From Janthinobacterium sp. 67 (GTDB taxonomy: Bacteria; Pseudomonadota; Gammaproteobacteria; Burkholderiales; Burkholderiaceae_D): a DNA stretch of 64,000 bases. The notes below the pieces were generated by a model. The model worked only from the letters and a program-made list of their open reading frames with translations. It did not search any database and was not told the DNA's origin. Location of the stretch: NCBI RefSeq assembly GCF_002797895.1, contig NZ_PGES01000001.1, positions 1,116,001-1,180,000 on the forward strand, given 5' to 3'. The translations under genes and the position numbers were made by a program. This document shows, in pieces, positions 28,757 through 41,613 of this stretch; position 1 is the first letter of the stretch; each line of letters opens with the position of its first letter.

Positions 28757-30198
28757 TCGGCGCCCAGCGCGCGCAAGCGGGCCACGGCGTGCGTATTGCC
28801 CGGGTCCAGTTCCAGCGAACGGCGGTAATGCGTGGCGGCCAGGTCCTTGGCGCCGTCCGCCTCGTACGCTTCGGCCAGGCTGTCGTGGCCATTCGCCCCT
28901 TGCGGGTACAGCTGCACGCCCAGCTGGAAAACGGCCACGGCCTGTTTCGGCTGCTGCCGGCCCAGCAGGCGGTAGCCCCAGGCGTTCAAGTCGTCTTCCG
29001 CAGGGTCCGGCAAGCCGTGCTGGCGCCGGATGGCGGCCAGTTTCGTATCCAGCCCGTCGAAACCGGCGCTGGCCGCCTTGTTGCGCAGCAAGTGCGCGGC
29101 ATACGCACCGCCCCGCTGCTCGCGCAATGCCGGAAGATAAAAACCGGCAACGGTATCGATCAGCTGTTCCGGCTGGCCGCCGGCCAGGTTGCTGAGAATA
29201 ATGACGGCCAGGCCATCGTTGGGATACACATAAAAGGCCGAGCGGCCGCCGCCGATGCCGGCCACGGCGCGGTGGCCAGCGCGGCCGATGGTGGGCCAGC
29301 CCAGCGCCCACGGCGCCGGCTTGCCGTCATTCAAGCTGGTCGGCTGCCACAGCCGTTCCACGCTGGCGGGCGCCAGCAAGCGTCCCGACTGCAGCGCGAC
29401 GAGCCAGTTGGCCAGCTCACCCGCGTTGCTGTTGATGCCGGCCCCGGCGCGCATGAACACGGGAAAATCCTCGATCACGTTGCGGTAGCCCTTGCCGTCC
29501 CGGTCCAGCACGTAGGAACTGGCCTTGTTGACGACCACGTCCTTCGCGTCGCCAAAGCCGCTGTGCGGCATGCCGGCCACGTCGAATTGCCGGTGCCGGA
29601 TGAAAGAGACAAAGGGCTGGCCGCCCTGGCGCTCGATCAATTGCGCCAGCAACACGTAATTGGTCTGGTTGTAGCGGTAGCGCAGGCCTGGCGGGGCTTC
29701 CACGGGCAGCGCCTGCACGGCTTTCCACGCGGCGTCGGCGTCGTCCGGCTGAGGACCCACGAGCTTGCCGCTGCGCGGGTCCAGCACGTCGGGCAAGCCC
29801 GAGCTATGGTTGAGCAATTGCGTCACCGACACGGCTTGCCACGCGACAGGCAGCCCCGACAGGTACTGGCCGATGGGTGCGGCCAGGTCGATCTTGCCCT
29901 CCTGCACCAGTTGCATCACGGCCACGCCCGTAAACGCTTTCGTTGCCGAATTGATGGAAAACAGGCTGGCATCCGTCACGGGCACCTGGTATTGCAGGCT
30001 GGCCAGGCCGAAGTTGCGCTTCAGCACAACCTTGCCCTGCTGTATCACGGCCAGTTGCAGCCCAGGAATCTGGCGCTCCTGCATTTCGCTGCGCACGAAG
30101 GCGGCAATATCGCGTTCCGCGGGGGACGCCTGCGACTGGCTGGCGGGAACGGCGGCAAACGCCATGACGAGCAGGACGGAGGAGAGGCGTGGCTTCAC
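28753..30198 (-). CDS. serine hydrolase (class C beta-lactamase fold) with C-terminal TPR
   Basis: 481 residues with a signal peptide (cleavage near SQA-SP). The beta-lactamase/penicillin-binding domain has the catalytic S84-A-T-K87 in SINSATKAFTG. The second motif reads YNQTNY, so the usual Y-x-N is Y-N-Q, a deviation. After about residue 390 come one or two TPR-like helices (FQLGVQLYPQGANGHDSLAE, AATHYRRSLELDPGN). This fold plus TPR is common in secreted esterases/peptidases rather than true beta-lactamases. No link to antibiotic resistance can be drawn from the sequence. Confidence 0.88.
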   Translation of the reverse strand: MKPRLSSVLLVMAFAAVPASQSQASPAERDIAAFVRSEMQERQIPGLQLAVIQQGKVVLKRNFGLASLQYQVPVTDASLFSINSATKAFTGVAVMQLVQEGKIDLAAPIGQYLSGLPVAWQAVSVTQLLNHSSGLPDVLDPRSGKLVGPQPDDADAAWKAVQALPVEAPPGLRYRYNQTNYVLLAQLIERQGGQPFVSFIRHRQFDVAGMPHSGFGDAKDVVVNKASSYVLDRDGKGYRNVIEDFPVFMRAGAGINSNAGELANWLVALQSGRLLAPASVERLWQPTSLNDGKPAPWALGWPTIGRAGHRAVAGIGGGRSAFYVYPNDGLAVIILSNLAGGQPEQLIDTVAGFYLPALREQRGGAYAAHLLRNKAASAGFDGLDTKLAAIRRQHGLPDPAEDDLNAWGYRLLGRQQPKQAVAVFQLGVQLYPQGANGHDSLAEAYEADGAKDLAATHYRRSLELDPGNTHAVARLRALGAD

Positions 30199-30283
30199 GA
30201 TGCGGCTTTCGACTAGAGAAAACGGAACCGCAGCATCCCATACCTATTTGTCAACGTCAACGACAATCTTGCCAATCAGAAAC

Positions 30284-30613
30284 TTACTCTTCCACCCATA
30301 CGTCCTCGTACCCTTCCCGGTCGAGAATGAACCTGGTGCCGCTGGGCAAGGCCAGGTAATCGAGCACCTGCGGCAGCATCTCGTGCAGGTGTTCCGCATG
30401 CAGGGGCTGGTAAAAGTCCAGCGCATCGTCGTGTTCGCCGCAGTGGATGAACCAGCTGATGGTGCCGTTTTCCGGCAGTTCGATGCGCGTGCCGTAGATG
30501 GGCGATTGGTCCAGGCTGCCGATGGCCAGGGCCACCATGGGCTCGGACGCCTGAGCCGGCAAGCGGAATTTGTCGCAGATGCGCTGCTGTGCTTCGCTGA
30601 TCGGTGTGGTCAT
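30284..30613 (-). CDS. Imm33-domain (DUF2185) protein
   Basis: 109 residues, soluble. It carries the Imm33 pattern: TISWFIHCGEHDDALDFYQP, PLHAEHLHEMLPQVLDYLAL, and RFILDREGYEDVWVEE. Imm33 proteins are immunity factors in polymorphic toxin systems, though many stand alone. No toxin, Rhs or secretion gene is near. The ATG at 30613 starts the domain; the frame open further upstream lies across the next gene. It is 7 bp downstream of another small gene on the same strand. Confidence 0.8.
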   Translation of the reverse strand: MTTPISEAQQRICDKFRLPAQASEPMVALAIGSLDQSPIYGTRIELPENGTISWFIHCGEHDDALDFYQPLHAEHLHEMLPQVLDYLALPSGTRFILDREGYEDVWVEE

Positions 30614-30620
30614 ATGGTTC

Positions 30621-31001
30621 TCAGGATCCAATGTAGCGGTAATGGAGGCGCAGCGCGCCATCGTGGCCGGACATTTCCAGGTGCAAGACCGCTTCGCCCG
30701 GCTTGCCGTCGGCCAGCAACAGGCATTCCAGGCCCAGCGGCCCGGCATCGGTGGCATACACGTCAACGGTGGGACGGCCGGCCTTGCCGGGCACGCAGGC
30801 TTGCGCCAATGGCGCCAGGGACAGCACCTGGTCCGCCGCGAAATAGCTGTCGAGCATCTCGATGAGCTCATCGGCCACGGCCGGCGACAGGCCCCAGTCG
30901 CGTTGCAGCGCAACAGGATCGCGCCCGTCCAGCGTCTGCACGAAAGCGGCGGCCTGCGCGTATGCCAGCTGCCGCAGGCTGCCGCTCATTGCTGTCTCCA
31001 T
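30621..31001 (-). CDS. small protein of unknown function, partner of the Imm33 gene
   Basis: 126 residues. No clear motif: an N-terminal helical part (LRQLAYAQAAAFVQTLDGRD) and a beta-rich end (GEAVLHLEMSGHDGALRLHY) that looks like a small alpha/beta immunity-type or nutrient-sensing fold. The ATG at 31001 has GGAGA upstream; a second ATG at 30989 is possible. It is cotranscribed with the Imm33 protein, so a related protective or regulatory role is possible but unproven. Confidence 0.65.
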   Translation of the reverse strand: METAMSGSLRQLAYAQAAAFVQTLDGRDPVALQRDWGLSPAVADELIEMLDSYFAADQVLSLAPLAQACVPGKAGRPTVDVYATDAGPLGLECLLLADGKPGEAVLHLEMSGHDGALRLHYRYIGS

Positions 31002-31104
31002 GAAGGTCTCCCTGGCTGAACAAGGCGACATTATAGTGGTGGCAGGCTGCCGTTGTCATTCCAGCAGTTGCATGACAGCACGGCCCCCCTGTAAAGTGGC
31101 TTGC

Positions 31105-31506
31105 ATGAAAAAGACCTACCATGGCAGTTGCCACTGCGGCGCCGTGCGCTTCGCCGCCGAAATCGACCTGGCGGCCCCCAGCCTGCGCTGCAACTGTTCC
31201 TACTGCCTGAAAATCCGCTGCTGGGCCAGCCTGGTGCCGCCTGCGGATTTTCGCCTGCTGGCCGGTGAAGCGGACTTGAGCGAGTACCGTTTCGGCGCGC
31301 GCCGCGAACGCCACTACTTTTGCCGCCATTGCGGCGTGCGCCCGTTCGGCCACGGCGATTCTCCCCGCAGCGGTCCCTTCGTCGGCATCGGCATCAACTG
31401 CCTCGACGACGCATCGGCCGCCGAGCTGGCGCAAGTGCCCGTCACCTTTGTCGATGGCCGGCATGACGAGTGGGACACACCGCCGCAGGAAACGCGGCAT
31501 TTGTAA
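31105..31506 (+). CDS. GFA family (CENP-V/GFA domain) protein
   Basis: 133 residues. The zinc-binding cysteines of the GFA fold are all visible: GSCHCGAVRF, CNCSYCLK and FCRHCGVRPF. The founding enzyme condenses glutathione and formaldehyde, but most homologues have unknown substrates. Divergent from the small Imm33-linked operon. Confidence 0.88.
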   Translation: MKKTYHGSCHCGAVRFAAEIDLAAPSLRCNCSYCLKIRCWASLVPPADFRLLAGEADLSEYRFGARRERHYFCRHCGVRPFGHGDSPRSGPFVGIGINCLDDASAAELAQVPVTFVDGRHDEWDTPPQETRHL

Positions 31507-31538
31507 ATAGCAATGTAGAAATGGTTGTCATCCACCAC

Positions 31539-31551
31539 GGAGTTTTCCTAC
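31539..31551 (+). repeat. 13-mer GGAGTTTTCCTAC, copy 1
   Basis: Found about 120 bp before the KGG stress gene; an identical copy lies at 56948-56960 upstream of the MFS gene. It could be a shared regulatory or promoter element; chance cannot be excluded. Confidence 0.35.
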
Positions 31552-31562
31552 GTGGCGACAAG

Positions 31563-31665
31563 TCGTGTCCCTATGGTTAAGCCCGACGCAGGCAGCGAGA
31601 ATGGTCTCAACGGTGCAGCCAATGCTGAACCGGATGATTACGCAAACCAACCATAGGGGACACGA
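31563..31665 (+). promoter_or_regulatory. leader hairpin that sequesters the KGG gene SD
   Basis: TCGTGTCCCTATGGTT (31563-31578) pairs with AACCATAGGGGACACGA (31649-31665), giving 16 base pairs with one bulged G and a 70-nt loop. The right arm contains the SD AGGGGA and ends two bases before the ATG. In RNA this would hide the ribosome site, a form of translational control such as a thermometer or sRNA target. Confidence 0.6.
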
Positions 31666-31667
31666 TC

Positions 31668-31949
31668 ATGACTTCGAACAGCAACGACAAATCGGGCAGC
31701 CAATCGGACAAACAGCAATCGGGCAGCCAGCAGTCGGATAAACAGTCCGGCAGCCGTCAATCGTCGGGCGGCACCCAGGGCGGCACGCACGAGCAGCATG
31801 TCGAGGCGGGCCGCCAAAGCCACAAGAATGACGGCGACAAGCAGTCGGGCTCGCAGCAATCGGGTTCCGGCACCGGCACGCGCGGCGGCACGCATGAGCA
31901 GCACGTGGAAGCGGGACGTCAAAGCCACAAGAATGACGACAAATCCTGA
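31668..31949 (+). CDS. KGG-repeat stress protein (con-10/GsiB-like)
   Basis: 93 residues, extremely hydrophilic (Ser, Gln, Lys, Asp, Gly), no hydrophobic core. Two near-identical segments, GGTHEQHVEAGRQSHKND at about residues 38-55 and 73-90, resemble the KGG motif of desiccation and starvation stress proteins (con-10, GsiB). Such proteins are disordered and protect cells on drying or nutrient stress. AGGGGA lies eight bases upstream within a long leader hairpin, hinting at translational control. Confidence 0.75.
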   Translation: MTSNSNDKSGSQSDKQQSGSQQSDKQSGSRQSSGGTQGGTHEQHVEAGRQSHKNDGDKQSGSQQSGSGTGTRGGTHEQHVEAGRQSHKNDDKS

Positions 31950-31982
31950 TCCCGCAGGCATGGCTGGACGCGGCTTGTCGAC

Positions 31983-32753
31983 ATGAAAGCGCTGACAGCC
32001 ATGCTGTGCGCAGGGCTGGGCTTGGGCCTTGCCGCCTGCGGCGCCAGGAATACGGCATCGAACGTGGAAGCTCCCGGCGCGCCGGCCGGGGTTTCCACGC
32101 GCATGCTGGACGCTGGCGCCGATGCCTTGCAAGCGCGGCCGCCGATAGCGGCGCTGAACGCCTATCTCGACGGCTTTCATTTCTACAACGGCAACCTGCG
32201 CGGCCAGATGGAAGCGCACCACTATTGCGCCATCGTCAATGAAGAACTGATCCAGTGCGTGATCTACGACGGCAATGTCAAGGATGCCAAGCTGATGGGC
32301 GTCGAGTACATCGTCAGCGCCAGGCTGTACCAGGGTTTGCCGGCAGAGGAAAAAACGTTGTGGCACAGCCATGTGCATGAAGTCAAATCAGGCCAGCTGA
32401 TCGCGCCCGGCATTCCCGCCGTGGCGGAAAAAGCCTTGATGCAAAAACTCGTCGCCACGTATGGCAAGACCTGGCATACCTGGCACACGGACGTGCACGA
32501 GACTCTGCCGCTGGGCGTGCCGCAGCTGATGATGGGGTTTACCGCCGATGGCCAGACCGATGCCGCCATGGTGGCCGCGCGCGACCGCCGCTTCCGCATC
32601 GATTCCGCCGAAAAACGCCGCCAGCGAGCCGATATCGCCGCGCCCGCCATCATTGCCGGGGCCGATGCATGGCAGCACGGCACGGTCATCCAGCTGGCCG
32701 ACCCGACGGGAATGCCGCACGGTGCAACACCACAGCCGCCGCCCACGCGATAG
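31983..32753 (+). CDS. OBAP family (DUF1264) lipoprotein
   Basis: 256 residues. The lipobox LGLAACG gives a lipid-anchored protein. The DUF1264/oil-body-associated-protein domain follows: LNAYLDGFHFYNGNLRGQME, AHHYCAIVNEELIQCVIYD, LMGVEYIVS, and HSHVHEVKSGQLIAPG. Plant members coat oil bodies; the bacterial role is unknown, perhaps envelope stress. It begins 33 bp after the KGG gene, so both may share stress control. Confidence 0.82.
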   Translation: MKALTAMLCAGLGLGLAACGARNTASNVEAPGAPAGVSTRMLDAGADALQARPPIAALNAYLDGFHFYNGNLRGQMEAHHYCAIVNEELIQCVIYDGNVKDAKLMGVEYIVSARLYQGLPAEEKTLWHSHVHEVKSGQLIAPGIPAVAEKALMQKLVATYGKTWHTWHTDVHETLPLGVPQLMMGFTADGQTDAAMVAARDRRFRIDSAEKRRQRADIAAPAIIAGADAWQHGTVIQLADPTGMPHGATPQPPPTR

Positions 32754-32807
32754 CCGGCACGCGAAAGGCCGTTGTCTGGAACCGCATTCTGGGCGATAAT
32801 GACGCCC

Positions 32808-33056
32808 ATGAACGATACCACCACCTTACCCCCATTGCCCGATCGCCTGTCGATCGACCCTAGCAGCCCTTATCACGTTGCAGCCGTGTTCGAGAACGAC
32901 GTCGGCATCCGCTTCAACGACAAGGAACGTCTTGACGTGGAAGAATATTGCATCAGCGAACGCTGGATCAAGGTCGCTTCCACCAAGTCGCTCGACCGCC
33001 GCGGCCGTCCGCTGCAAATCAAGCTCAAGGGCAAAGTCGAAGCGTTTTACCGTTAA
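32808..33056 (+). CDS. DUF3297 family protein
   Basis: 82 residues. It matches DUF3297 throughout: LPPLPDRLSIDPSSPYHVAA, FENDVGIRFNDKER, DVEEYCISERWIKVA and the end KLKGKVEAFYR. Function unknown; a small conserved protein of beta- and gammaproteobacteria. Starts at 32799 and 32808 are both possible. A strong terminator follows. Confidence 0.85.
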   Translation: MNDTTTLPPLPDRLSIDPSSPYHVAAVFENDVGIRFNDKERLDVEEYCISERWIKVASTKSLDRRGRPLQIKLKGKVEAFYR

Positions 33057-33090
33057 GCAATACTTGCAGTTGTTCCTGCAGTGTCATCGA

Positions 33091-33114
33091 GGCCGATTTT
33101 CATCGGCCTTTTTT
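33091..33114 (+). terminator. intrinsic terminator after the DUF3297 gene
   Basis: GGCCGAT (33091-33097) and ATCGGCC (33102-33108) form a perfect stem with a 4-nt loop, followed by six Ts. Confidence 0.88.
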
Positions 33115-33132
33115 GCGTCCGTCGCTTTCCGC

Positions 33133-33999
33133 TCATGCATCGCTGGTGACCAGCCCTGCCGCGGCCGCCATGGGCAGCCACAGCATGGCGTCGGCCAGTA
33201 CCTCGTCCGGCTCCCTGCCACTGGACTGCGCCGCCTGCCGCGCGTACTGCGCCAGCGGCGCGCCACCGGCCAGCGCCTGCAGGCAGTAAAATTGCCACGG
33301 CTGCAAGTCCTGCATGGCAAGCCGGTAATGCATGCGTGAAATGGCGACAAAGGCGGGACTGACATCCGGCTGGGCCGGCACGGCGTCGTCCGGCGCAGCC
33401 TGCGCCTGTTGCCAGAAAGTACACAGTGGAAACGATAGTGCCAGCAGCCGCGTGCACGGCGCCAGGCGCCAGGCCGGCGCATTTCCCAATAGCAAATCAA
33501 GACCGGAAGGCAAGACGGGCGGCGGGCGTTTTTCCAGCCCCGGCGCCCTGCCCGCCTCGCTGCGCGCCCGCTCCAGCTGCGCCAGCTCGACGGCAAAGCG
33601 CAAGGCGTCCCCCTGTGCCCCCGCGCCACGCTGGCTGGCGGCAAGAAAATCGGCGAAGCCGCCGCCCAGGTCATACAGGGTGGGCGAAGCGGATGGGTGG
33701 CGCCAGACATAGGCGCGGGCAAAGAAGGCGAACAGCTCGTCGCCCATCACCTTGCGCAAGACGGGATAGTCGGCCTGCAGGCATTCGAGCAGGCGCTGCA
33801 CGTAGCCGTCCGCGTGGATATGCAGCGGCGCCGGCCCGCCCCGCGCCTGTTTCAGCACGTGCTCCTGCGCCAGGCCGTGGCGCTCGCTGGCCAGCTGCGC
33901 GCCGCGCACGGCGCCGCCGGGTGTTGTCATGGCCGTCAGGAACCATGCCTGCAATTGTGCCAGCGGTGTGCTGGCGTCCCCGGCGGCGTTACGGCGCAT
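33133..33999 (-). CDS. DUF2063/HvfC-BufC-type partner of the MNIO enzyme
   Basis: 288 residues. The N-terminal DUF2063 domain (about 1-120: [55 protein letters not shown]) matches HvfC/BufC/MbnC/TglI-type partners that recruit the precursor for the DUF692 enzyme. A second helical part follows. Its ATG at 33999 overlaps the end of the DUF692 gene by 11 nt, so it is translationally coupled. It is the third gene of the ferritin-MNIO operon. Confidence 0.85.
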
Positions 34000-34918
34000 G
34001 GGCCGCCTCCAGGTGCAAATCCGGCGGCGTCGAGACGGCGGCGGCAACCCTGGCTGGCGCGGCGTCCGCAAAGTCCCCCCGCACCGCCGCGCGCGTCTTG
34101 TCCAGTTCGGCCAGCAGTTGCGGATACGGGGGAATCTCCGCATCCCATTCCAGCAGGGCCGACACGCCGCCCGTCAGCTGCTGCGCCAGCGCGTACAGGC
34201 GCCAGACGGCGGCCGGCACGGGCGCATCGTGGGTATCGATCAGCATGGCGCCGCGGACGGTCGGCCCGGCCAGGTGGATCTGCACGATGTGGTCGTGCGG
34301 CAGTTGGCGGATATACGCGGCCGCATCATAGCCGTGGTTATGCGCGCTGACGTGAACATTATTGACGTCGAGCAATAGCCCGCAGCCCGTGTCCTCGGCC
34401 AGGCGTCCCAGAAATTCCCATTCCGGCATGCTGGACTGGGCAAACTCCACGTAGGTGCTGGGGTTTTCCAGGATCAGGGGGCGGCCGAGGAATTCCTGCA
34501 CCTGCCGCACGCGCGCGCCCACGTGGCGCAGGCTGGCTTCGTCCAGCGGCAGCGGCAGCAGGTCGTGGCTGTTGAGCGAGGCGGCGCCCGTCCAGCACAG
34601 GTGATCGGAAATCCACGCGGGCCGGATTTCGGCGGCCAGCTGGCGCAGCTTGCGCAGGTAAGCCAGGCTCAGGGGATCGCTGCTGCCGATCGACAGCGAT
34701 ACGCCATGCATGACGATGGGCACCTGCGCCGCCACCTGCTCGAGCACGTGGCGCGCGTAGCCGTGGTTGTCGATGAAATTCTCGCTGATGATCTCGAACC
34801 AGTCCACCTGCGGCCCATGGCGCAGGACGTGCTCATAGTGCGGCGGGCGCAGCCCCACGCCCAGGCCCAGGTTCGGCAGGCCCAGGCGCGGCCGCGTCGC
34901 GTGCAGGATGCCCCGCAT
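33989..34918 (-). CDS. DUF692 multinuclear iron oxygenase (MNIO), BufB/MbnB-like
   Basis: 309 residues, TIM barrel. All metal-ligand blocks of the family are present: [11 protein letters not shown] (H71), WISDHLCW (D105, H106), [12 protein letters not shown] (E151, N152), [16 protein letters not shown] (D184, N187, H193), IHLAG (H215), IDTHDAPV (H230) and LLEWDAEIP (E257, D259). Characterised MNIO enzymes use two or three irons and O2 to convert cysteines in peptides into oxazolone/thioamide, 5-thiooxazole or related groups. The start at 34918 overlaps the ferritin-like stop by one base (TGATG), coupling the genes. The likely substrate is that ferritin-like protein or a distant peptide. Confidence 0.92.
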
Positions 34919-36942
34919 CAGGTCGACGGCGGCAAGGCCAGGCGCAGGTCGGTGGGCGCCGGCGGCGCTCCCACCGGCGTGCCGCGCGCCGCCATCACCT
35001 TGCCGTAGGCTTCCCAGGCCTTGTCGTAGACGTTGTCGCCCAGCGCAAAGCTCATGCTCTGGCCCAGCGGCTTGCTGCGGTGCCCGGGCGCGGGGCCGAA
35101 ATCGTACAGGGTCATGGTGGCGGGCTCGGGCGGTTCCTTGCCCGTGGTGTTCGGATACAGCTGCGAGGCCGAAATCGGCACGGCGCAGCCGCCGAAGCTC
35201 GCGCATTTGTTGTCGCTGGGCGCGCTGTAGACTTTATCGTCCGCCGGTGGCGGTGGCGGCACATAGCACGGCGTGCCCGGCGACGCGGCGATCTTGACCG
35301 AGTGACCGCAGGACGAGCCGCCCGTGTCGGCCTGGGCAAAGCCGCAGCCGCCCTGGGCGTGGCAGCCATTGGAGCCGCGGCACGTATGGTAAACGGCCAG
35401 CGCGGCGCAGGTGGACGACGCTTCGCCCTCCAGGTGCATGCCCTGGCAGGCGTGGTACAGCACGCCCTTGTCGGCCAGCGGCACGCCCGTCGCCAGGTTC
35501 GGCGCCTGGCCCAGCACGGCCCAGCAGATGGCCATGCGGTCGCCCGCGCCCACCATCGACGGGTACGGGAAGTCCAGTTGCTGGTTCAGCCAGTACCGGT
35601 CCAGCACGGAAGTGATGCCGTAGATGGCGCCCGTGGCCACCGTGCTCAGCATTCCTAGGGTGCCGCTGGTATCCTTCAGGCGGTTCAGGGCGCCCGCCAC
35701 GGTGGCCGGCGCGGGGATGTTCTTCGGCGCGGTGGCCGGATTGTAGCGCTCGTTGGTCAGCATGGCCTCGCTCCAGCGCTGGCCTTCCCTGTGCCAGCCT
35801 GCCCAGGTCTTCACGGGCAGCATGGACTTGACCTGGCCGAAGCGCTCGTAGTGGTCGAACGGGGCGCTGTCGTGGCGCGCCTGCGCATCGCGCGATTCGG
35901 CGTCCTTGCCATTGTTCGTGTACGAGGGATAATCGCACTGCAAGGCGGCCAGGTCTTCGCGGTAGTCGGGCTGCACGGCCATCAGCCGCAAGCCCGCGTC
36001 GCGGCGGTAGCGCTGGATGGCCGCTTCGCTGCCCTCGCCCTGGTCCGTGATGGCCGCCATCATGTCGATGGCCTTGTTGAACGAGCCCGTCTGGCCGCCA
36101 TCCTGGTCCTGCGGTCCGAAGCAGGTGTCGAAACGGGGAAATTCCGCCCGCGCATGGCCCTGGACCTGGCTGTTGAACATGTCCTGCTGCACCGAACCGT
36201 TGACGAACAGTTTTTGCCACAGGGTCTGGCCATCCGCGTATTCGATGCTGATGTAGCGCGCGTAGCATTCGTACAGGTAGCCGATGGTGCCGAACAGGGG
36301 CAGATCGTGCACGTGCTTGCCCGGCGTCCAGCCCGGCAGCGGCACTTCCGGGAAATACTTGGTGTGGTTGTGCTTGTCGAACTCGGCCAGCTGGAAGCGC
36401 GCCTGCGCCTCGGGTTGCTCGATGGCGAGGAACAGGTCGCACTGGTTGTCGTTCAGTTCTTCCAGGTTGACGCGCACGTGGCGGTAGCCGGACGTGTCCT
36501 GCAAGTCGACGATGTGCGGGATCACCGTGCAGTGCTCGCCGTAACAGGTCCAGCCGTGGTCCTGCGATTGCAGCTCCGAGCCCGTGAAGCATGGCGCCGT
36601 GCCGATGGCCGTGGCCAGGTTGGCCGCCATCTGCAGGTGCAGCATTTCCTGGATGAAGACGCTGAAGATGATATTGAAGGCCTTCTGCTCGGCCAGCTCG
36701 GGGCGGGCCGTGGTGCCCATGCCCGGCCACTGGCGGCCTTCGTAATACGTGATGCCTTTCGAGTTGATCTGGTGCGTGCCCTGGATCGAATACATGGTGG
36801 CCATGTACAGGGGAATGGTGAACAGTTCCACGCTGACGGCCGCCTGGGCGATGGCGCGCACGGCGGCCGTATCGGTGGCCAGCATGTCGAGCGGACGATT
36901 CGTGATGGCGGGCTGCGTGCTTCCTAAAACGGGCATTTTCAT
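34918..36942 (-). CDS. VioB-like ferritin-fold protein with cysteine-rich tail
   Basis: 674 residues. The N-terminus is a Ferritin-like (PF12902, iminophenyl-pyruvate dimer synthase) domain: E39 in [16 protein letters not shown] and E99-M-L-H102 in [15 protein letters not shown] are diiron ligands. A long middle region (about 110-490) follows. The tail has nine cysteines (C499, 512, 521, 527, 533, 545, 559, 580, 586), including [15 protein letters not shown], similar to the C-x-G-x-N-x-C repeats of bufferin-type MNIO precursors. The start at 36942 has GGAGA upstream. No signal peptide is evident. First gene of the operon; enzyme, substrate, or both. Confidence 0.82.
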
Positions 36943-37212
36943 TCTGTCTCTCCACAGGAACGATGCGTTTCGGATATCGGGCCGGGTCACGCCATCTGCG
37001 AGCGCTGTTCACGGCAAGGAAATCATACGCTTGGGAAAGATACTTTTGCGGCAAGATTTATGCGCTGGCCGAGGAGTGGTGCGGCCCGCCTTGCGCCATG
37101 AAAATAGGCGTTTTCAGCCGCCATTCGATGACAATTGAATAGAATCGGCAAAAGCTGTGCGTGTATAAGCGCCGCACCGGCAGGCGCCGGCGCGTGGCTT
37201 GCATGCTGATAG
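36943..37212 (-). promoter_or_regulatory. upstream region of the ferritin-MNIO operon
   Basis: 270 bp without a convincing gene. On the minus strand a weak promoter, TTGCCG (37146-37151), 17 bp, TCGAAT (37123-37128), is possible and would give a leader of about 175 nt. No recognisable operator or riboswitch was seen. Confidence 0.3.
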
Positions 37213-37860
37213 TCAGCCGGCCGGCGGCGGCTGGAAGGCGCAGAAACCGGGCCACTGCTCGCGGCTGTCGCATACCTTCAGGCAGCCTTTGTCATCCTTG
37301 AACGTGGCGACGACCTTGATGGGAAAGCCATAGTGCGGCGTGGTGGCCAGGAAGGCGGACGGGCAGCTTTGTTCGTTGCTGAAGCGGAAAGTGATTTCTT
37401 CGCGGCGGCCCTTGCGCTCAAAGCTCAGCATGAAGGTTTCATTGCTGTTCCACTGCGCCTTGCCCGGCACGCGGAAGCGGTAGCGGGGGTTGCCCGGCTG
37501 CTGGCCGCCAAGTTTCTGGCCAAAGACGCGGCTGCTGGCCGTGGCCGTCTCGACCTTGGCAACGGGATACACGACGCCAAAGATATAGGTGCCGGCAAAC
37601 CCCTGGTCGAAGCCGAGTCCCTTCTGGTAAAACGGCACGACGATATGCGGCGCGCCCGCGTATTCCACGGTATTGCGGGCCGTCGTGCGCGACGTCAGCT
37701 TGTCATCGGGCTCTTTGCCGAAGACCACGTCCAGTTCCAGCAAGGCTTGCTGCTTGTCGATATCTTGCGCCAGATAATCCTTGGGGAACGTTTCGCCATG
37801 CACGCAGCCGGCCAGCAGGGAAGCGGCGAAGCAGCCGGCGATCAGTTTGGATATTTTCAT
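37213..37860 (-). CDS. lipoprotein of unknown function
   Basis: 215 residues. Signal peptide with lipobox SLLAGC (cysteine near residue 19). The rest is mostly beta-rich (RYRFRVPGKAQWNSNETFML, EEITFRFSNEQ) and has four cysteines near the C-terminus (SCPSAF, GCLKVCDSREQWPGFC). No family recognised. Its ATG overlaps the stop of the preceding secreted protein gene by 4 nt (ATGA), so the two are produced together. Confidence 0.75.
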   Translation of the reverse strand: MKISKLIAGCFAASLLAGCVHGETFPKDYLAQDIDKQQALLELDVVFGKEPDDKLTSRTTARNTVEYAGAPHIVVPFYQKGLGFDQGFAGTYIFGVVYPVAKVETATASSRVFGQKLGGQQPGNPRYRFRVPGKAQWNSNETFMLSFERKGRREEITFRFSNEQSCPSAFLATTPHYGFPIKVVATFKDDKGCLKVCDSREQWPGFCAFQPPPAG

Positions 37861-38711
37861 GGCTGTTTTCCTTCCGGCGGCGAGGAAGCAAGGCCCAGCC
37901 CTGACACTTGCCAACCGTCCGTGCCTTCTTTCCATTGAAATTGCTGGCCGAACCAGGCCAGTTCCAGCTCGCGCCGGATGCGGATCGAATCCGTGCGGCC
38001 CTGGCGCGCCTTGATGGCGGCGCCCGCCTGGGCGGAAGCGGCATCAGACAAGGGTTTCAGCCACCGTTGGTAGGTATCGGGCGGCAAGGCCAAGACGCCA
38101 GCGACGCCGTCATCGCGCGTGGCCACGATGATGCCCACCTTCGTCAGCGCATTCGTGAGATAAGCGCCGCGCCGCCCGTCGGGCGAGACGGAAACCAGCA
38201 TGGCCTGCGGATAGTCGCCGCTGACGTTGCCCGGCACGTCAAACCACAGCAGTTCGCCCGTGCCTGTATCGAGCGCGCGGCCGTCGCGGGGAAACAGCAG
38301 CATCTCGGGGCGGCCAGGTTGCGGCACGCCCCATTCGGGGTCGCGTTCCGTGCGCACCATGTTGTCGCGCTGCAAGGGACTGATGGGGCGCATCAGCGGT
38401 TCGCCATTCTGCACGCCGATCAGTATCGTGCCCTGGCCCGTATAGCCCTTGGTAAAGGCCAGCAGCATGGGCTGGCCGTCGCGCGTGGCCTTGATGGACC
38501 GCACTTCCACCACTTCGCGGGCGCCGCCGGGCCAGTAGCCGTGCCGGCGGAAAGACAAGGTGACGAGCGCATCGTGGCGGTTGTTCGTGACGGCAAAGTC
38601 GCCGTATTGCCTGACCACCGGCATGTTGGGCGTCTGCGCCTGTGCGGCGGGCGAGATGGCGGCAAGCAGCGAGGCGGTGGCCGCCAGGCGGCATAAAGAG
38701 AGGGACAGCAT
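37857..38711 (-). CDS. secreted protein of unknown function
   Basis: 284 residues with a signal peptide (cleavage near AQA-QT). The mature protein has beta-strand character and a predicted surface feel (PVVRQYGDFAVTNNRHDALV, LLWFDVPGNVSGDYPQAMLV). No domain recognised. It is coupled to the lipoprotein gene that follows. An IS element inserted about 70 bp upstream of its start may have changed its promoter. Confidence 0.75.
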   Translation of the reverse strand: MLSLSLCRLAATASLLAAISPAAQAQTPNMPVVRQYGDFAVTNNRHDALVTLSFRRHGYWPGGAREVVEVRSIKATRDGQPMLLAFTKGYTGQGTILIGVQNGEPLMRPISPLQRDNMVRTERDPEWGVPQPGRPEMLLFPRDGRALDTGTGELLWFDVPGNVSGDYPQAMLVSVSPDGRRGAYLTNALTKVGIIVATRDDGVAGVLALPPDTYQRWLKPLSDAASAQAGAAIKARQGRTDSIRIRRELELAWFGQQFQWKEGTDGWQVSGLGLASSPPEGKQP

Positions 38712-38790
38712 GGCATCCTGTAAAGGTCGCACCGGGCGAAGAACGAGGATGATAAACGATTCCTCGTCAACAATACTGTCCAATTGAAAA

Positions 38791-39850
38791 GGCTCTGTCA
38801 TCAGCAAGTAGGGGAAATGCCGGAATCTTCCTGTGGCCGTGCTGTCTGACTCTGCATACTCACTTTGCGGGAGCCAATCATGCGGCCAGCCGAATGGATC
38901 ACCTTGATTGCGCAGTTTGCCCGGTTGAGCCGACGCCAGCGGCAAGCAGGCATTGCCCTGCTGCGTAGTAACCAGCCACACGACACGACCGTCGCACTGC
39001 TGGAAAATGTGGCGCAGCCGCGATTGGCCTGTCCCGCCTGCCACTCAGCGCACTTGCACCGGCACGGCCATGCGCACGGCCTGCAGCGCTACCGCTGCGT
39101 TCCCTGCAGGCGCACCTTCAATGCCTTGACGGGCACGCCGCTGGCCCGCTTGCGCCACAAGGCGCTGTGGCTCGACTACGCCGATTGCCTGCTGGCATCG
39201 GATTCCGTGCGCAAGGCGGCGAGCCAACTGGGCGTACACCGCAATACCACCTTTCGCTGGCGCCACCGCTTTCTCAGCGTAGCGAAGACCGACCGGCCGC
39301 ATGGCCTGCATGGCATCGCTGAGGTCGACGAGTTATATCTGCTGGAATCGGAAAAGGGGGCCAGAACAATGACGCGTCCGGCCCGCCGCCGGGGCGGCCA
39401 TGCCCACAAGCGCGGCATTTCCAATGAACAGGTCTGCATTCTGGTGGCGCGTGACCGCACGGGCCAGACGCTCGATTTCGTCACGGGCAAAGGGGCACTG
39501 ACGCAGGCGCAGTTGCACCACTGTTTGTTGCCCGTCATCGACAAGGATGTCTTGCTGGTCACCGATGGCCATGCCGCCTACCGGGCTTTTGCGAGGGAAG
39601 CGGGCATCAGTCATCAGGCCGTCAACTTGCGCGCCGGCATCCGCGTGCAGGGCGCCGCCCACGTGCAGAACGTCAATGCTTATCACAGCCGTTTGCGGCA
39701 ATGGCTGGGGCCATTTCATGGCGTGGCGACACGCTACCTGCCGAACTACCTGGGGTGGCGCTGGATACTCGATGCCGGGCGCATCCGCTCACCGGAAACG
39801 CTGTTGAAAGCAACATTGGGCGCATTCCCACACCTGACGGTGACATAGCC
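38791..39850 (+). mobile_element. IS1595 family insertion sequence
   Basis: About 1060 bp with imperfect terminal inverted repeats: left GGCTCTGTCATC (38791-) and right, read inward, GGCTATGTCACC (from 39850), continuing with scattered matches for about 27 bp. Flanking octamers ATTGAAAA (38783-38790) and ATTGGAAA (39851-39858) are an 8-bp target duplication with one mismatch, the duplication length of this family. One intact transposase gene is inside. Confidence 0.82.
38880..39848 (+). CDS. IS1595 family transposase (ISXO2-like)
   Basis: 322 residues. Zinc ribbon CPACHSAHLHRHGHAHGLQR with RCVPCRRTF, a helix-turn-helix (KAASQLGVHRNTTFRWRHRF) and the ISXO2-like DDE domain with AEVDELYLLES, LLVTDGHAAYRAF and NVNAYHSRLRQWLG (the N/H step typical of IS1595). 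The ATG at 38880 has GGGAG seven bases upstream. The gene looks intact and runs to 2 bp before the right end. Confidence 0.9.
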   Translation: MRPAEWITLIAQFARLSRRQRQAGIALLRSNQPHDTTVALLENVAQPRLACPACHSAHLHRHGHAHGLQRYRCVPCRRTFNALTGTPLARLRHKALWLDYADCLLASDSVRKAASQLGVHRNTTFRWRHRFLSVAKTDRPHGLHGIAEVDELYLLESEKGARTMTRPARRRGGHAHKRGISNEQVCILVARDRTGQTLDFVTGKGALTQAQLHHCLLPVIDKDVLLVTDGHAAYRAFAREAGISHQAVNLRAGIRVQGAAHVQNVNAYHSRLRQWLGPFHGVATRYLPNYLGWRWILDAGRIRSPETLLKATLGAFPHLTVT

Positions 39851-39860
39851 ATTGGAAACA

Positions 39861-40679
39861 TCAACGGCGCTGGATCTCGATCAGCTCGATCTCGAACAGC
39901 TTGGGCCACAGCTTGCCCGTGACAAACAAGCGCTTGCCCCGCGCATCCCAGGCGATGCCGTTGAGCACGGCGTCGGGATTGGCCGTGCCGCGCTGTTCCG
40001 GTGGCAGCAAGCCCGTCAGGTCGATCCAGCCGACGACCTTGCCGCTGGCCGGGTCGATGCGGGCGATCACGTCCGCGCCCCACACATTGGCGTACAGCTC
40101 GCCGTCGACCATTTCCAGTTCGTTCAGGCGCTCGATGGGGCGGCCTTCCGCCTTCACCTCGAAGCGGCGCACCTCGGCCAGGGTTTTCGGGTTGAGCACG
40201 CGGATGGCGGAACTGCCGTCGCTCATGTAGACGAACTTGTCATCGCTGGCCAGGCCCCAGCCTTCGCCCTGGTAGCTGAATTTGCGTTTCAGTTTGAACG
40301 TCTTCAGATCGAAGACATAACCGGTCTTCGACACCCACGTGAGGCCCAGGATCTCATCGCCCACGTCCGTGATGCCTTCGCCGAACACATTCTTGTCGAG
40401 CATGCTTTTCTGCAAGACCTTGCCCGTCGCCAGCTCCACCTTGCGCAAGGAGGACTGGCCATTCTGGCCCGTGCTTTCATACAGATGACCATCCTTGAAC
40501 AGCAAGCCCTGGGTGAACGCCTGCGGGTCGTGCGGATAGGTATGCTTGACGAAATAGCCATACACGGGGATGGCGGCCTGGGCGTAACCCATTTCGCTCA
40601 TCAGGCCCACGGTGCACAACAATCCCAGCAGCAATGAGCCTGCCGTGCGTTTCAGACTGGTTTTACCGATATTCTTCAT
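39861..40679 (-). CDS. glutaminyl-peptide cyclotransferase (plant-type beta-propeller)
   Basis: 272 residues with an N-terminal signal (cleavage near YAQA-AI). Matches the Glu_cyclase_2 family: THPQAF-like block HDPQAFTQGLLF, LYESTGQNGQSSLRKVEL, GEGITDVGDEILGLTW, and LNELEMVDGELYANVW. It forms pyroglutamate at the N-terminus of exported proteins. It stands next to the IS element but is intact. Confidence 0.9.
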   Translation of the reverse strand: MKNIGKTSLKRTAGSLLLGLLCTVGLMSEMGYAQAAIPVYGYFVKHTYPHDPQAFTQGLLFKDGHLYESTGQNGQSSLRKVELATGKVLQKSMLDKNVFGEGITDVGDEILGLTWVSKTGYVFDLKTFKLKRKFSYQGEGWGLASDDKFVYMSDGSSAIRVLNPKTLAEVRRFEVKAEGRPIERLNELEMVDGELYANVWGADVIARIDPASGKVVGWIDLTGLLPPEQRGTANPDAVLNGIAWDARGKRLFVTGKLWPKLFEIELIEIQRR

Positions 40680-40704
40680 ATTCTTGGCGGTGGTTGGCGA
40701 GCGC

Positions 40705-41613
40705 CTATTGTAATCGCCCGGGCTGCGCCATGTGCGCCCTGACGAGCTCCAGCCAGGCGCGCGCCGCAAACGACAGCCGCCCTCCCCGGCGCCAGGCCAG
40801 CATCAGATTCCATTCCACGGGCGGACCAGCAAGGGGAAGGACGTCGAATTGCGCGGCGTCGAGCGTGTCGCAATACATCTTCGGCAACAGGCAGATACCC
40901 ACGCCCAGCCGCACCAGCGAGGCAATGAAATCCCACTGGCCGCTGCGGCCCGTGATGCGCGGGGCGAACCCGGCCCGCTGGCAGGCGTCCAGCACGATGT
41001 CGTTCAGGGCAAAGGCGGCGCCATAGAAAATGAAGGGACTGTCGGCCAGCTCGGCCAGGGCCACGGAAGCGCGCCCCTGCCACGGCGAACCGGGCGCGGC
41101 CAGCAGGCACAGCGGCGAGCGCACGAGGGGCAAGGCTTCGAAATCCTGCCAGGTGGCCGCATTGCCAGGGTAATCGAGCATGGTGCCCAGTTCCACCGCG
41201 CCCGTGCGCAAGTCGCGCTCGATCGCCTGCGTGCCGCTTTCGTACATCTTCAGCTCAATCCCGGGATAGCGCTGGTGGTACTCGGCCAGCCACGGCGCCA
41301 GGGTCGAGTGCGTCTGCGGCGATACGCCGACGCGCAATTCACCGCGTTCCAGATGTTGCAAGTCGCGCAATTCCACCTTCAGTTCCGCGTGCAGGGCCAG
41401 CAGTTCATGCGCGCGCGACAGCACCACCTTGCCCGCGTCCGTCAGGGTAAAGCGCTTGCCCGCGCGGTCGAGCAAGGCCAGGTCCAGCGACTGTTCCAGC
41501 TGGGCGACCATCTTGCTGACGGTGGGCTGCGTCACGTGCAGCCTGGCGGCCGCCCGCGTAAAACTGGCTTGCTCGACCACTTCGACGAAGTAGCGCAGGG
41601 AGCGGATATCCAT
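40705..41613 (-). CDS. LysR family regulator, CidR-like
   Basis: 302 residues. HTH at MDIRSLRYFVEVVEQASFTR with RLHVTQPTVSKMVAQLE; effector domain from GELRVGVSPQTHSTLAPW. The gene is divergent from cidA/lrgB genes, the arrangement of cidR-cidAB, so it probably activates these under overflow metabolism or acetate/low pH. An 11-bp perfect dyad lies between them. Confidence 0.88.
   Translation of the reverse strand: MDIRSLRYFVEVVEQASFTRAAARLHVTQPTVSKMVAQLEQSLDLALLDRAGKRFTLTDAGKVVLSRAHELLALHAELKVELRDLQHLERGELRVGVSPQTHSTLAPWLAEYHQRYPGIELKMYESGTQAIERDLRTGAVELGTMLDYPGNAATWQDFEALPLVRSPLCLLAAPGSPWQGRASVALAELADSPFIFYGAAFALNDIVLDACQRAGFAPRITGRSGQWDFIASLVRLGVGICLLPKMYCDTLDAAQFDVLPLAGPPVEWNLMLAWRRGGRLSFAARAWLELVRAHMAQPGRLQ

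Follow-up and report, generated by a model that had tools for sequence, protein, structure and literature searches.

Enzymes of the MNIO (DUF692) family are otherwise known mainly for rebuilding cysteines in small copper-binding peptides, and pairs of DUF692 and DUF2063 proteins modify the cysteines of small precursors (methanobactin, bufferins, TglA); captophorins, or thiooxazole products, are marked by the conversion of cysteine to 5-thiooxazole with the loss of four hydrogen atoms. According to PMC12452194, bufferins chelate copper, DUF2063 partners accompany precursors with signal peptides, and proposed protein substrates of MNIOs comprise TIGR04222 proteins, fusions of bufferins with MerC or cytochrome c, and long precursors.

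The locus described here lies in a 64,000-nt stretch of the genome of Janthinobacterium sp. 67 (hereafter the window) and consists of three overlapping minus-strand genes (33133-36942), which encode, in this order, a 674-aa ferritin-like protein (FER, the proposed substrate), an MNIO and a DUF2063 partner. It resembles the Buf2 (BufA2) clusters in the order precursor-MNIO-DUF2063, in an MNIO of the NF050167 family and in a motif of the CxGxNxC type, but differs from them in a substrate of 674 aa with a ferritin-like body and no evident signal peptide, in that FER additionally carries a GGCAVPI motif and a conserved module at its C-terminus, and in MNIOs that form a separate clade, whose presumed selectivity site is occupied by Ala or Gly and not by Asp. 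With the Lys-Cys or EGKCG precursors (oxazolin and fontiphorin, the "captophorins" of PMC13097082) it shares the combination of MNIO and DUF2063 partner and a Cys preceding a small residue, and the Cys repeats of a form from Symploca recall repeat-type precursors; however, FER has a GCAVPI motif and no EGKCG, as well as the ferritin-like body. Like the TIGR04222 proteins and the bufferin fusions (PMC12452194), FER is a large protein with a Cys segment, encoded ahead of the MNIO gene, but the former are membrane or exported proteins, whereas FER appears soluble, and TIGR04222 proteins have partners of PME-type 2, whereas that of FER is a DUF2063 protein (PME-type 1). The initial annotation stated that this system would differ from those with small precursors, but the action of MNIOs on proteins had been proposed earlier (PMC12452194). 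In the literature searched (openly accessible main texts), we found no description of an MNIO/DUF692 enzyme paired with a PF12902 or ferritin-like protein; the word "ferritin" is absent from the main text of PMC12452194, and the unlabelled proteins of that study may include the FER family.

The operon and its three products

The FER gene (34918..36942, minus strand) overlaps the gene of the 309-aa MNIO (33989..34918, minus strand) by 1 nt (34918), and the latter overlaps the gene of the 288-aa DUF2063 partner (33133..33999, minus strand) by 11 nt (33989-33999), so the three-gene operon with overlaps of these lengths, as annotated initially, is present in the sequence. Just 3' of the operon, a pattern match identified a terminator-like hairpin (33089..33110), reported on the plus strand, whose palindrome could serve both strands; with four such sites found against 2.4 expected, it is not significant by itself. 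Among small ORFs (20-160 aa, at least four Cys) listed over the range 29000-41500, the interval that separates FER from the adjacent upstream gene (36943-37212) contains none, and those located inside the operon on its strand are only alternative frames of the FER, MNIO and DUF2063 genes, in agreement with the earlier claim that there is no small precursor in or beside the operon. Translation of the whole window in six frames contains a single CxGxNxCxxxGxC (the strict motif), located within FER. A DUF2282 precursor elsewhere in the genome had been considered as an alternative substrate; the only one (L002:1157-1459 onward, at ~5.50 Mb; PF10048, E 2.3e-23) adjoins its own MNIO in a separate bufferin locus, in which a DUF2063-like stretch follows. 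Elsewhere in the window, a small hydrophilic repetitive protein is encoded at 31668-31949 (plus strand), with GGTHEQHVEAGRQSHKND present twice, and an ORF of 327 aa that contains CxxC motifs in pairs (38865-39848, plus strand) presumably encodes an insertion-sequence transposase.

The profile analysis confidently assigned FER to PF12902 (81.4 bits, cut-off 22.3, E 1.1e-22), but no NCBIfam family, the VioB model (TIGR04492) included, matched it at E<=1; the label "VioB-like" therefore holds at the Pfam level, whereas FER is not VioB itself, a PF12902 enzyme. The ferritin-like body encompasses residues 11-484 (35491..36912, minus strand), and only over these residues does FER match the structure 3hl1 (CC_0557 of Caulobacter, PF12902). 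Residues E39, E99, H102, E175, E267, D300 and E303 do not vary in 60 alignment rows (the 62 aligned FER rows minus L063, the Symploca form, and the 5'-cut L042), and the body cysteines C133 and C226 are likewise invariant. FER is probably a diiron protein of the ferritin fold. Its N-terminus reveals no hydrophobic stretch, with the match to 3hl1 starting as early as residue 11, and judging by its sequence FER appears to be soluble and cytosolic, without a signal peptide, which would make it an exception among the precursors partnered with DUF2063 proteins. PF12902 genes are also located close to fungal lodA/lodB genes, according to PMC4417212.

The MNIO matches PF05114 with 349 bits (cut-off 25) over profile positions 2-261 of 263 and exceeds the cut-off of the NCBIfam model NF050167 (MNIO_BufB; 351.9 bits, cut-off 310), hence at the profile level it is an intact DUF692 oxygenase, as annotated. 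Its partner, annotated as an HvfC-type DUF2063 protein (PME-type 1), was recognized by PF09836 (62.8 bits, cut-off 27.2, E 3.6e-17), but its score with the NCBIfam HvfC model NF050145 is only 42.9 bits, under the cut-off of 142, and we describe it as HvfC-like.

The cysteine tail and the C-terminal module of FER

FER was initially said to end in nine cysteines; nine are indeed present, within residues 499-586, but they are followed by 88 residues without Cys, which harbor a conserved C-terminal module overlooked before. The bufferin-like motif of the CxGxNxCxxxGxC form (residues 519-535; 35338..35388, minus strand) contains C521, C527 and C533, and the second motif (residues 571-597; 35152..35232, minus strand), with its GCAVPI part, contains C580 and C586. 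These five residues, C499 and C512 never vary in the 60 rows, i.e. the tail cysteines are conserved among the MNIO-linked homologs, while C545 is less constant (57/62 FER rows). A separate set of 76 proteins again revealed invariant C499, C521, C527, C533, C580 and C586, as well as the terminal PPST. The nine cysteines differ in how likely they are to be targets of the MNIO. The strict motif is present in 60 of the 62 FER rows (exceptions: L047 and L063) and in 91 of 12,863 six-frame ORFs from loci L001-L197, all of which include the FER tail; numerous loci in this set are near-copies. The structure around the cysteines is predicted with low to middling confidence. In three homologs from Sphingomonas (L043, L048, L064) the tail is expanded by extra Cys repeats, e.g. 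CGTPTPTP/GCGAP.

The initial annotation had noted a similarity of the tail to bufferin motifs. A profile of FER residues ~494-545 matched 22 Buf2-like peptides with a score of 25.5 (probability 63%), above all 40 column shuffles (best score 20.9), a weak to moderate indication that the FER tail may be related to these peptides; the BufA2 precursor model NF050166 gave no match to FER. For comparison, 30 MNIO loci sampled from the class contain the CxGxNxC motif in 22 cases and the strict CxGxNxCxxxGxC motif in 4.

The C-terminal module (residues 598-674; 34921..35151, minus strand) is predicted with pLDDT mostly of 75-93. PPST forms the very end of the protein in 60/60 products of FER cassettes (61 loci minus L039, cut by a contig end). 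The codons used for PPST differ among loci, and the MNIO gene has its first in-frame start candidate anywhere between -35 and +99 nt, so that the constraint acts on the protein. Because the module is invariant and retained in L063, which has no body, it probably serves as a recognition element, as far as can be judged from sequence conservation. This element is not uniform, since a shorter type of PF12902 protein (L147-L149) ends with PPS and another type (L136 and L143) has no PPST.

L063, found on a single contig of a metagenome-assembled genome (MAG) of Symploca sp. SIO2C1, comprises a gene for a 164-aa protein followed by the MNIO and DUF2063 genes. This protein contains six copies of GCAVPI and a FER-like C-terminal module ending with LHLAFPPST, but it lacks the first motif and an equivalent of C580. 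Searches of this MAG revealed neither a PF12902 match nor a second copy of the tail. The MNIO of L063 is nested in the clade of FER-linked MNIOs, so the simplest reading is that this putative natural small precursor lost its body secondarily. In the phylum (292 genomes) and the order (243 genomes) to which the Symploca MAG belongs, the tail profile matched only this MAG itself. We inspected 30 of 120 proteins listed (178 passed) and 14 from another listing. The small proteins P0123, P0130, P0221, P0222, P0224, P0225 and P0229 initially resembled additional stand-alone precursors, but were treated as gene-call fragments, because in P0142 a sequence of this kind is part of a longer FER protein. 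With the fragments set aside, L063 (P0121) remains the sole stand-alone candidate.

Distribution of the cassette and the MNIO clade

Searches of genome contigs with six FER peptides, in which the MNIO was not used as a query, retrieved 61 loci. In 60 of them FER is directly followed by two genes on the same strand, the first for a relative of the MNIO and the second for one of the DUF2063 partner, in the bufferin-type order also met in the window; the remaining locus (L039) stops at the contig end. The hosts include Janthinobacterium, Massilia, Undibacterium, Chromobacterium, Ralstonia, Caulobacter, Sphingomonas and Vibrio, as well as a Chitinophagales MAG and the Symploca MAG. Protein identities of 91-96% to named relatives agree with the assignment of the genome studied here to Janthinobacterium. 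Analysis of 38 loci chosen across genera revealed no additional real gene family widely common to them, the widest clusters after the three cassette genes being antisense or shadow frames. The cassette is rare: of the 369 genomes from the class, 3 are matched by the tail profile (the Janthinobacterium genome counted). At the family level, 62 among 294 genomes contain PF12902. Two Pseudoalteromonas plasmid records carry relatives with ~35% identity. Matches in Streptomyces (at a position without a listed gene) and Citrobacter (within a ParB gene) were judged unrelated.

The expectation that PF12902 proteins with Cys-rich tails would be found beside DUF692 genes was borne out by 97 PF12902 places outside the Janthinobacterium genome: both tail motifs, defined after the family was known, occur in 29/29 places adjacent to an MNIO and neither in the 68 places without one (0/68), with MNIOs detected by a custom profile built from the loci and some stretches cut by contig ends. 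The 29 places are related to each other and comprise 24 of the main type, three of the shorter type (L147-L149) and two of the distinct type (L136:4843-7023 and L143:4843-6954, both minus strand), whose tail is longer and more bufferin-like and whose C-terminus is different. The L136 protein reached 15.6 bits with the BufA2 model NF050166 (cut-off 60), with two weak stretches (E 0.014). In the PF12902 tree L136 and L143 are separate from the main FER group, on long branches, which leave a single origin possible, and we do not claim a second recruitment. Near two of these variant cassettes, related genes of unknown function are found (L136:1483-2973 and L147:4502-5860, plus strand).

The 34 FER-type MNIOs form one clade with support of 95/99 in a tree of 66 rows, in which the bootstrap had not settled and the MNIOs of L002 and L003, both from the Janthinobacterium genome, are on very long branches. 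According to PMC13097082, selectivity around the target Cys depends on residues surrounding the active site; the residue that follows the catalytic Asp, itself one of these, is Asp in enzymes acting on Cys-Lys (BufA2) substrates. From the alignment of MNIOs we infer that the EWDA sequence (34139..34150, minus strand), with a presumed catalytic Asp and selectivity residue, corresponds to Asp249/Phe250 of FonB in that work. All 34 enzymes of the FER clade have W-D-[A/G] at this site, whereas other MNIOs have R-D-D in 25 of 30 cases (RDA in 3, RDS in 1 and WDA in 1). Ala or Gly at the presumed site would fit targets followed by a small residue, namely C533-Gly and C586-Ala, both within GGC[G/A], and the GCA repeats of the Symploca protein agree with this.

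Proposed maturation of FER and alternative explanations

We consider it probable (about 80%), based on the sequence comparisons, that the operon encodes a FER substrate together with a dedicated maturation pair, that cysteines of the tail are oxidised, and that the product binds metal or has a redox role. The DUF2063 partner would capture the C-terminal module (ending with LRLALPPST) and present the nearby cysteines to the MNIO, which would oxidise at least one of them, with C533 and C586 in the GGC[G/A] motifs as the likeliest targets. These could become metal ligands of the thiooxazole type (or oxazolone-thioamide type), thiooxazole formation being the chemistry that would be expected by analogy to the bufferin class. 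The product would be a cytosolic ferritin-fold protein whose tail provides ligands for soft metals of the Cu(I) type and which is engaged in metal binding or redox work.

That FER itself is the substrate of the MNIO, as inferred in the initial annotation, whose own genomic checks came out in its favor, appears most likely, but VioB and other enzymes belong to PF12902, the ferritin residues do not vary, and in some MNIO clusters the upstream gene has been judged likelier to encode an enzyme than a precursor (PMC12452194). FER could thus be a second tailoring enzyme (a diiron oxygenase) or a helper of the MNIO, the real substrate being a small peptide encoded elsewhere. We regard this as unlikely, given the operon without a small precursor, the single DUF2282 peptide provided with its own MNIO, the tail motifs that track the MNIO, and L063, which has the tail without an enzyme-like body. 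It is also conceivable that the tail cysteines are unmodified and have a structural or metal-binding role (e.g. zinc, disulfide), with the MNIO acting on something else: C133 and C226 of the body are equally invariant, and the tail modification is a prediction. However, in the 97 PF12902 places the tail motifs are found always and only beside an MNIO, and the genes have the substrate-MNIO-partner order, as in bufferin clusters (PMC12452194), both of which make this very improbable.

If FER is indeed modified by the MNIO, its tail might be a mere metal sponge, i.e. a cytosolic copper (or gold) buffer, with the body acting as a scaffold or in iron storage. The copper chelation by bufferins (PMC12452194), the expanded Cys tails of several Sphingomonas homologs and the Symploca form, which suggests that the tail can act alone, are consistent with such a buffer; on the other hand, most homologs keep a constant number of cysteines at constant distances in the tail, as well as constant acidic residues in the body, which implies more constraint than a loose sponge requires, and we give this explanation somewhat less than an even chance. 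More speculatively, and with considerable doubt, the MNIO may build a protein-derived cofactor, in which copper, or a different soft metal, is bound beside the diiron site by heterocycles that derive from cysteines of the tail, to yield a mixed-metal oxidase or oxygenase. The invariant ferritin residues favor the cofactor role, while the body-less Symploca form is evidence against it and favors metal buffering. A cofactor role would mean that an MNIO makes an enzyme cofactor rather than a metallophore, the active site being built by a RiPP-type enzyme.

PMC12452194 raised the question of whether bona fide proteins are modified by MNIOs, and the FER cassette renders it directly testable. In this conserved set of three genes, an oxidative enzyme of the RiPP type is predicted to act on a large folded protein, whose C-terminus probably contains a recognition element; the enzyme shows a corresponding shift at the position that we equate with a reported selectivity site, and L063 would provide a natural minimal substrate. 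The cassette could thereby lead to a metal site of a new kind within a ferritin fold. The Janthinobacterium genome encodes a third MNIO (L003:561-1478, at ~1.61 Mb), located after a membrane-like protein; the Gly/Cys tail of this protein ends with GGCGGGGGCGS, and we presume the protein to be similar to the TIGR04222 proteins.
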